The notes beneath the pieces are model-generated. The model was not told the origin of the DNA and searched no databases. It was given only the letters and a program-made list of their open reading frames with translations. This document shows positions 61,567 through 64,000 of a stretch of DNA of 64,000 nucleotides, one piece after another (within the stretch, counting starts at the first letter, position 1; each line of letters starts with the position of its first letter). A program made the position numbers and the translations under genes. Source of the DNA: Synechococcus sp. 1G10 (GTDB lineage: Bacteria; Cyanobacteriota; Cyanobacteriia; PCC-6307; Cyanobiaceae). The stretch is taken from contig NZ_NQKW01000002.1 of NCBI RefSeq assembly GCF_002252625.1, positions 1 to 64,000 on the forward strand, written 5' to 3'.

Positions 61567-63627
61567 TCAGATCAGTCGCGACCCACTGGCCTGGCGGCGC
61601 TGGCTGGGGTCGAACACCGCCGCGATCGTGCGGATCAACCAGCGGCCCACGTCTGTCACCTCCAGGCTGTTGGCCCCCAGCCGCACCAGGCCGTCGGCTT
61701 CGAGAATCTGCAGATCGGCCCACTCGCTGGCGAACTGGCGCTTCGCCTCAAGGGGTTGCCCCAGGGCGATGGTGTCGAAATCCACCGCGAAGTGGCACAT
61801 CAGGCTCTGGATGATCGAGCGCCGCAGCAGCACCTCGGGATCCCGCACCACCAGGCCCCGCTCCACGGGCAGATGGCCCTCGTCGAGGGCCTGGACATAG
61901 CCCTTCAGTGAGCGCTGGTTCTGGCTGAACAGATTCTGGAACTGGCTGATCGCCGTCACGCCGATGCCGAGCAGGTCGCGCTCGCCGCCGGTGGTATACC
62001 CCTGGAAATTGCGGTGCAGCCGCTCCTGCCGCGCCGCCACCGCCAGGCTGTCGCTTGAAAGGGCGAAGTGGTCCATGCCGATGGCGTCGTAGCCATCGCC
62101 GGTGAAGGCGGTGAAGGCGTGCTGCAACATCCGGATCCGCTCCCGCTGGCTGGGGAGGTCGTCGGCGGCGATCTTGCGCTGCATGGGCAGCTGCTCGGGC
62201 AGGTAGGCGAAGCTGAACAGCGACACCCGGTCGGGCCTCAGCTCCCGCACCAGGGCGATGGTTTTGGCGAACCGCTCGGGGGTCTGCAGAGGCAGCCCGC
62301 AGATCAGATCGACGTTCACGCTCTCGAAGGCCGCCTCCCGCATCCACTCCATCACCCGCCGGAGCTGCTCCACCGGCACGATCCGGTTCACGGCCGCCTG
62401 CACGTGCGGGTCGGCATCCTGGATTCCGAAGCTGATCCGGTTGAAGCCCAGACGGCGCAACTCCAGCACCTGATCACGGCTGAGGAACTCCGGATTCACC
62501 TCGATCGAGGCCTCCAGGTCGGGCGCCAGATCCAGCTGCTCCCCGATCAGATCCCAGAGTTGGCCCTGCTCCTGGGAGTTGAGGTAGTTGGGCGTGCCGC
62601 CACCCCAGTGCAACTGCCCCAGCCGCCTGCGCCGGCCCGAGGCCTGGGCCACCAGCGCCAGCTCTTTGGTCAGAGCCTCTAGGTAGGGCCCCACCACGGC
62701 CGAGCCGGCCTGGGTGGTGATTCGGTTGCAGCCGCAGTACCAGCAGGCATGGCGGCAGAAGGGCACGTGCACGTAGAGCGAGAGATCGGCCGTGCTCGCC
62801 TGCCCCAGCTGGCTCTCCAGGTCGGCGGGACCCACGCCGTCGTGAAACGCCGCGGCGGTGGGATAGCTGGTGTAGCGGGGAACGGGCTTGTCGTACTTGA
62901 GCAGCAGGGGGAGCGGATCCGCTCGGGGCGTGGTGAGTTCGCCCAGCTCGGCCAGCAGGCTCTGGGTGTCGAGGAAGGCGGTCACCGCCTCTTCCAGCAG
63001 CTCCGCTTCCTCGGCTTCGTTGAGCTCGAGCTGCTCGAAGGCGTCGTGGAGGGCCTGCTTCAGTTCCGGGATCGGCCGCTCGAACTGCCAGAAGCGCAGG
63101 GAGGGCAGACCATGGGCGGCCAGGATCGCGTTGGCCTGCTGGGCTAGCTGCTGCCCGCCGGAGAGATCGCCGCCGTAGCGCACATACACATGGGCGAGGA
63201 AGCGGTGCGGTGCCTGCTGGGCGAGTTTGCCGAGGTGCTCCAGCCAGGCCTGGCCTGCGGCTGAGGGTCCGCTGGCTTCGATGCCGGCCAGCAGGGCCAC
63301 GTCGTGGCGCAGGGCTTCGCTGCGGCTGAGGGCACCCCAGGGAAGGTCGGGGGCGCCAAGGGCTGCTGCCAGTTCGGGGCCGGTTTGCTCGATCAGCGCG
63401 TAGGCGGGGCCGAGGGCGCGGATCAGGCCCGCCAGCTGCAGTGGGCTGGCCTGACCTGCCAGGAGTGCACGGGAGAAGTCCATGCCCTCCGCCTTGTGGT
63501 GGGCGGCGCCGATGCGGGCGTGCAGACGCCGCACCCGGGGTCCGAAACCCTTGCGGGCGGCGACATCCGCTGGCCTGGCGTGGTCGGAAATGGCGCCGGA
63601 AACAGCTTCAGGGAGGGTGCTGGTCAT
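61567..63627 (-). CDS. heme oxygenase-HemN fusion protein
   Basis: 686 residues from ATG 63627. Residues about 30-225 are a heme oxygenase: RIGAAHHKAEGMDFSRALLA (proximal histidine at 43 or 44) and HVYVRYGGDLSGGQQLAQQA (distal helix). Residues about 240-686 are an oxygen-independent coproporphyrinogen III dehydrogenase: VPRYTSYPTAAAFHD, YVHVPFCRHACWYCGCNR (radical-SAM cysteines 291, 295, 298 plus 300), WGGGTPNYL and CGLPLQTPERF. In cyanobacteria ho2 and hemN are normally separate genes, induced together at low oxygen. Here they are one continuous frame with no stop or frameshift. So one protein would carry heme breakdown to biliverdin and the anaerobic step of tetrapyrrole synthesis. Confidence 0.92.
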   Translation of the reverse strand: MTSTLPEAVSGAISDHARPADVAARKGFGPRVRRLHARIGAAHHKAEGMDFSRALLAGQASPLQLAGLIRALGPAYALIEQTGPELAAALGAPDLPWGALSRSEALRHDVALLAGIEASGPSAAGQAWLEHLGKLAQQAPHRFLAHVYVRYGGDLSGGQQLAQQANAILAAHGLPSLRFWQFERPIPELKQALHDAFEQLELNEAEEAELLEEAVTAFLDTQSLLAELGELTTPRADPLPLLLKYDKPVPRYTSYPTAAAFHDGVGPADLESQLGQASTADLSLYVHVPFCRHACWYCGCNRITTQAGSAVVGPYLEALTKELALVAQASGRRRRLGQLHWGGGTPNYLNSQEQGQLWDLIGEQLDLAPDLEASIEVNPEFLSRDQVLELRRLGFNRISFGIQDADPHVQAAVNRIVPVEQLRRVMEWMREAAFESVNVDLICGLPLQTPERFAKTIALVRELRPDRVSLFSFAYLPEQLPMQRKIAADDLPSQRERIRMLQHAFTAFTGDGYDAIGMDHFALSSDSLAVAARQERLHRNFQGYTTGGERDLLGIGVTAISQFQNLFSQNQRSLKGYVQALDEGHLPVERGLVVRDPEVLLRRSIIQSLMCHFAVDFDTIALGQPLEAKRQFASEWADLQILEADGLVRLGANSLEVTDVGRWLIRTIAAVFDPSQRRQASGSRLI

Positions 63628-63766
63628 GACGAAGGGTGCCGAAAAGGTGCCGAAATGAGAGCGGCACCCCGGGAGGGCGCCCTCGGCAAACGGTATAACG
63701 TTACTGTTGTCATGCTGTCCTGTCGTTGCGTTTTCGTTGCAACGCGCTCGCCACCCCTCACCCGCC
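63628..63766. promoter_or_regulatory. divergent promoter region of the fusion gene and the last gene
   Basis: 139 bases. GGTATAACGTTACTGTTG (63692-63709) contains TATAAC, a good -10 element, and the palindrome TAACGTTA. GTTGCGTTTTCGTTGCAACG (63724-63743) holds two GTTGC copies and GTTGCAAC. Either could bind an oxygen- or iron-responsive regulator such as ChlR or Fur; this is not shown. Confidence 0.45.
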
Positions 63767-64000
63767 ATGACTGCCGCCCCCTTCACCCCGGCCGCTCCTG
63801 TTTCGGCCCGAAGCCTGCCGCTCCTGCTGGCACCGCTGGGCCAGCTCAGCGGCGATGGTCAGCTGCGCGAACTGATCGAAGAGCGCCGCGACCGCATAGG
63901 GCCTGACGTGGAGCTCTGGTACCTGGAGCCGGCGCTGGTGGACGAGCTCAACCTGCGGCAGGCGCTCAGCAACCCGCCAGAGCAAGGGCGCCCAACCCGC
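63767..64000 (+). CDS. hypothetical protein, cut by the window end
   Basis: 78 codons from ATG 63767 without a stop. It reads MTAAPFTPAAPVSARSLPLL, LAPLGQLSGDGQLRELIEER, RDRIGPDVELWYLEPALVDE and continues. It has a proline/alanine-rich start, then an alpha/beta soluble region. No signal peptide and no recognisable domain in the visible part. It is divergent from the heme oxygenase-HemN gene and could be its regulator or an accessory protein, but nothing supports that yet. Confidence 0.6.
   Translation, partial: MTAAPFTPAAPVSARSLPLLLAPLGQLSGDGQLRELIEERRDRIGPDVELWYLEPALVDELNLRQALSNPPEQGRPTR

Follow-up and report, generated by a model that had tools for sequence, protein, structure and literature searches.

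Heme oxygenase (HO) cleaves heme to biliverdin in a reaction that depends on O2 and draws electrons from ferredoxin, and HemN, the oxygen-independent coproporphyrinogen III oxidase, is sensitive to O2. The two enzymes meet in what looks like a single polypeptide near the end of the window that we analysed, a stretch of 64,000 nucleotides from the picocyanobacterium Synechococcus sp. 1G10. Is this fusion genuine, how did it come into being, and what might the cell make of it? The original prediction, drawn from the letters of the DNA, had seen an uninterrupted frame running from a heme oxygenase, implied to be HO2, through a short linker into a radical-SAM HemN.

One frame, two complete enzymes

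The coding features on which the argument rests are the following.

61567..63627, minus strand: HO-HemN fusion gene, 686 amino acids, a single open frame from the ATG at 63627 to the stop at 61567-61569; loci L058, L059, L060 and L061 are fused as well
62971..63525, minus strand: heme oxygenase domain, residues 35-219 (PF01126; alignment with C. diphtheriae HmuO; fold match)
62908..62952, minus strand: linker, residues 226-240, from the last HO helix to the HemN N-terminus; deletion junction by comparison with split relatives
61591..62907, minus strand: HemN domain, residues 241-679 (TIGR00538; E. coli HemN 1olt)

From HO into HemN the frame runs on without a stop or a frameshift, and there is no internal start at the passage. 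It recurs in four further assemblies of the genus at 87-98% identity: J7-Johnson (G001, 98%), Cruz-7E5 (G002, 96%), the CZS48M bin (G007, 89%) and CS-1329 (G006, 87%). As the assemblies are drafts, and as several fused relatives come from metagenome bins, an artefact of assembly or a frameshift had to be considered. The junction region around position 62900 is nevertheless also open in the independent isolate genomes J7-Johnson, Cruz-7E5 and CS-1329, and the recurrence of the same fused frame in four further assemblies rules out an assembly error; we give the artefact practically no credence, and the uninterrupted frame stands as it had been proposed.

A domain search finds both enzymes complete within this frame, with the identities originally given to them. 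In the first half, the Pfam model PF01126 (Heme_oxygenase) matches residues 35-219 with 83.2 bits for a cut-off of 23, and sequence matches extend to C. diphtheriae HmuO, human HO-1 and Synechocystis HO1 and HO2. The proximal-histidine segment AHHKAEG lies at residues 42-48, with His43 as the proximal histidine, and the distal motif GDLSGGQ at residues 153-159; both align with HmuO and are kept in the relatives, whether fused or split. In the second half, PF04055 (Radical_SAM, Pfam) covers residues 285-459, and the NCBIfam equivalog model TIGR00538 (hemN) covers residues 241-679 with 504-506 bits for a cut-off of 325, while the scores of the HemW, HutW and HemZ models all remain below their cut-offs. 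The motif CRHACWYCGC occupies residues 291-300, with the CxxxCxxC cluster at 291-298 and a fourth cysteine at 300. Homology with E. coli HemN (1olt) is full-length (chain residues 10 to 448, E 6e-109), and it includes the N-terminal segment of that enzyme, the alignment starting at chain residue 10. A model computed with AlphaFold from 28 relatives (mean pLDDT 77.8, pTM 0.59) matches 1olt with Z 43.1 over residues 236-676, and rat HO-1 with Z 25.0, in both cases across almost the entire domain; solved heme oxygenases, with their all-helical fold, are matched at a Z of about 25 along model residues 28-234. Because pTM is 0.59, the relative orientation of the two halves in this model is unusable.

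The linker is short, as predicted, with about 15 residues (226-240), of which residues 233-237 are modelled with low confidence. In a comparison between the two fused subgroups of the genus, it varies more than either half; in that same comparison dN is 0.04-0.10 and dS 0.27-0.45 for both halves, which points to purifying selection acting on each of them since the fusion. A short, variable and poorly modelled linker might suggest that the two products are separated after all, by proteolysis at that place or by an internal start of translation, and one other fused locus, L040, does carry an ATG near the start of HemN. In the window gene, by contrast, a codon scan finds no ATG, GTG or TTG between residues 215 and 265, so that a separate start near the N-terminus of HemN is impossible, and a HemN begun at the GTG of residue 265 would lack its conserved N-terminal segment. 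A separation of the two products has little chance of being the right account, and we go on with a single protein carrying both enzymes.

Repeated fusion in the Cyanobiaceae

How widely does the fusion occur? Among 400 Cyanobiaceae genomes sampled, 87 gave a strong match, most of them with the same HO adjoining hemN. In most relatives the two are adjacent but separate genes, mostly with short spacers; among the 61 named loci scored for both genes, 54 have two genes and seven a fused one. Fused copies are found beyond the genus of the window (L063, L065, L040 and L042/L077), and at least nine fused copies keep both halves. The HO-HemN fusion occurs, then, in several freshwater and brackish picocyanobacteria and is not unique to Synechococcus sp. 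1G10. Outside the Cyanobiaceae all the HO/hemN loci checked consist of two frames, without any fusion, and a search for a plasmid-borne fusion returned no plasmid record covering 80% of the query.

The quality of some bins deserves a word of caution. The WB8_1B_136 bin holds both the fused locus L077 and a split locus, L092, from distant branches, and is probably mixed. The Cyanobiaceae locus described here also turns up in the bins of L107 and L110, whose labels, Bifidobacterium breve and Prochlorococcus marinus MIT 9215, are probably wrong.

On concatenated HO and HemN trees the fused state requires five changes, four of which are forced by well-supported branches, and placing all fused rows in one clade, as a single origin would have it, is rejected (p-AU 1e-64). 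With at least four changes of state and this rejection, we can conclude that the fusion arose repeatedly in the family, by deletions that removed a stop codon, a spacer and a start codon. The break points differ among the fusions: in the subgroup of the window the end of HO runs straight into the HemN leader, whereas CZS48M and CS-1329 retain 8-10 extra residues of the former leader. Within the same genus, BSA11S is split and retains stop, spacer and ATG close to where split relatives have them. We read this as two separate fusions inside the genus, a single one with BSA11S placed outside not being rejected (p 0.18). Readthrough of the stop codon in split relatives was also considered but found no support: HO and hemN lie in the same frame in 13 of the 54 split pairs, which does not exceed the chance expectation.

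Must these events have been of any use? The fusion could be a neutral accident of closely spaced, co-transcribed genes, without functional gain, as suggested by the short spacers of most split relatives, by small deletions with different break points and by the split state of BSA11S inside a fused genus group. Yet at least four changes of state took place within one family, with both halves maintained in nine copies or more, a record that still allows for neutrality, and the hemN loci that we checked in other families showed no such fusion. We see neutrality as a possibility of real weight, if not the one that we would choose, and it is compatible with the explanation that we prefer for the protein itself, a bifunctional enzyme probably made under low oxygen.

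A heme oxygenase of its own in a predicted low-oxygen gene set

The implied identification of the heme oxygenase as HO2 did not hold. HO1 and HO2 share 44-52% identity, while the hemN-linked HO of Cyanobiaceae reaches about 28% with HO1 and 27-32% with the HO2 that accompanies hemN in other orders. It forms a clade of its own (support 100) on a very long branch, and in a grouping test the HO of the window did not fall among the hemN-linked HOs of other cyanobacterial orders; together these observations exclude HO2. Among the matches listed from 390 genomes of the class (E up to 1e-14), no HO outside the family was more than 33% identical. A third, divergent lineage of cyanobacterial HO, as defined by these sequence comparisons, thus occupies the place of HO2.

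Divergence of this extent raises the question of catalysis. The HO half may have lost or changed its activity and become a heme-binding sensor, or a regulatory domain, for HemN; the very long branch and the identity of about 28% to other cyanobacterial HOs would fit, as would the presence in the same genome of two ordinary HO1-type genes. The proximal histidine, GDLSGGQ and the fold are nonetheless conserved across the clade, fused or not, and in most relatives this HO is a single-domain protein, which therefore needs no attachment to HemN. A sensor appears improbable to us, and we retain an active heme oxygenase whose catalytic activity and regiospecificity we infer from sequence.

The rest of the genome has a single HemF, and the fusion carries its only hemN. 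A second cyclase gene, chlA_II, lies on the same strand 13 kb upstream of the fusion (C83:76987-78054), and the two are not in one operon here. A chlA_II of this type occurs in 77 of 87 genomes that have this hemN, compared with 1 of the remaining 313, a co-occurrence inflated by the relatedness of the genomes; some of the ten hemN genomes that lack it may be broken assemblies or have a broken chlA_II. The usual order in relatives is arsR, chlA_II, variable genes, a small divergent gene, HO and hemN. The variable genes comprise, in differing combinations, desaturase, glycosyltransferase-like and aldehyde-decarbonylase-like genes. Between chlA_II and HO, at L065:6236-7872, in L091, L080 and others, lie genes for a fatty acid desaturase and for an aldehyde-decarbonylase-like protein (PF11266), which could possibly serve at low oxygen as isozymes of further enzymes that require O2. 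RedBA-s (G005), of the same genus, has kept just a C-terminal remnant of hemN, and its chlA_II is broken (L184 / L131), a joint decay of the low-oxygen set; G004 has neither hemN nor chlA_II.

The protein divergent to chlA_II in this genome is an ArsR-type regulator (PF01022) without cysteines, and not the MarR-type, four-cysteine ChlR. Such a regulator (L182:14088-14450 and homologues) is divergent to chlA_II in nearly all relatives, a 52% identical homologue lies near chlA_II in the Oscillatoriaceae bin L121, and it is ChlR that holds this position in Synechococcus PCC 7002. Upstream of the fusion two further features come into play.

63689..63711, minus strand: conserved motif GACAACAGTAACGTTATACCGTT, with dyad AACnnTA-N6-TAnnGTT, 62-84 nt upstream of the ATG
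63767..64000, plus strand, continuing to C83:64207: small divergent gene sharing the intergenic region; its position is kept in most relatives

The protein of the small gene (LLAPxxxLSGDGQLREL...WLQLRFGG) has no Pfam match. The motif, 23 bases long with consensus aAcAACagTAnCGTTATAnCGTt, is found in 58 of 62 HO upstream regions, and the best site of the window, itself part of the training set, scores 35.4 bits against 8.2 for the next. Upstream of chlA_II, 28 of 55 loci have a related string above the 95th percentile of shuffled sequence; as some loci are duplicates or close relatives, these motif counts are not independent. As a hypothesis, a common regulator might control the fusion and chlA_II through this motif.

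Elsewhere among cyanobacteria, ChlR induces chlA_II, ho2 and hemN when oxygen is low, and the marine picocyanobacteria surveyed earlier were listed as lacking hemN and ho2, except for single exceptions (PMC4500134). Chlorophyll builds up in anoxic darkness in Black Sea picocyanobacteria equipped with hemF as well as hemN (PMC6776005). The link to a low-oxygen gene set made in the original prediction is borne out by the co-occurrence with chlA_II and by the conserved gene order; we may thus place the fusion, conditionally, in a low-oxygen regulon with chlA_II, joined in many relatives by the desaturase and the aldehyde-decarbonylase-like protein.

What the fusion may do, and how it compares

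What would be gained by joining the two enzymes? HemN makes protoporphyrinogen IX, from which protoporphyrinogen oxidase and ferrochelatase are still needed to reach heme. Since two enzymatic steps separate the product of HemN from the substrate of HO, direct channelling between the two sites is unlikely. The claim that the fusion couples heme degradation to heme synthesis is right, then, in the physical sense of one polypeptide, and not as a direct transfer. What is left would be a fixed co-expression, or a local effect of the O2 use of HO on the O2-sensitive HemN. If the tether itself were functional, the O2-consuming, ferredoxin-fed HO half protecting or feeding the HemN half, the repeated fusions would reflect selection for local coupling; we consider this improbable.

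The most likely reading is a bifunctional enzyme whose two activities are intact and expressed together. Two adjacent genes became one by deletion of what lay between their coding parts; the resulting protein would probably be made under low oxygen, its halves active and produced together, and the fusion would mainly fix their co-expression at a 1:1 ratio, while no metabolite would pass straight between the two active sites. Taken as a whole, namely a low-oxygen bifunctional HO-HemN that arose by repeated deletion, belongs to the chlA_II regulon and sets a 1:1 ratio without direct transfer, we regard this account as probable.

The pairing of HO and HemN at low oxygen is already known. What is new, provisionally and as far as we have seen, is that the two are joined covalently, that this happened more than once and that another HO lineage has taken the place of HO2: searches of the open full-text literature brought up no account of HO and HemN fused in one protein. 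Evolution has here physically joined, several times over, an enzyme that consumes O2 and another of the same pathway that is sensitive to it. For picocyanobacteria this provides a low-oxygen tetrapyrrole set open to testing, which has an HO lineage to itself, a candidate regulator and a candidate operator, and one genus, which holds natural fused and split homologues, offers a ready comparison of the effect of fusion.

Compared with enzymes of known structure, the HO half shares its fold, proximal-histidine segment and GDLSGGQ with HmuO (1iw0) and with Synechocystis HO1 (1we1) and HO2 (1wov), but its identity to them is low and its C-terminus continues into HemN. The HemN half has full-length homology, the cluster motif and the N-terminal segment in common with E. 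coli HemN (1olt), which lacks the heme oxygenase added at the N-terminus of the fusion. Another union was noticed at L155 (1-2994, minus strand; G666:C2, around 534000-536500), where a very long hemN frame runs from HemN (TIGR00538, 724 bits) in frame into BchE (TIGR02026, 755 bits), the anaerobic Mg-protoporphyrin monomethyl ester cyclase. This cyanobacterium belongs to the same class, and in it too HemN has been joined to a further enzyme of tetrapyrrole metabolism, but the partner is BchE, placed C-terminal to HemN, and HO is a separate gene.

The closest known system is the chlA_II-ho2-hemN cluster of Synechocystis PCC 6803 and Synechococcus PCC 7002 (PMC4500134). There as here, HO is directly upstream of hemN, and chlA_II, in some genomes with a desaturase, belongs to the same set. 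In that cluster, however, HO and hemN are separate genes, the HO is an HO2 close to HO1 and the regulator is the MarR-type ChlR, whereas here the two genes are fused, the HO belongs to a third lineage and an ArsR-like regulator stands beside chlA_II; the relatives of our locus further add to the set the aldehyde-decarbonylase-like gene and the small divergent gene.
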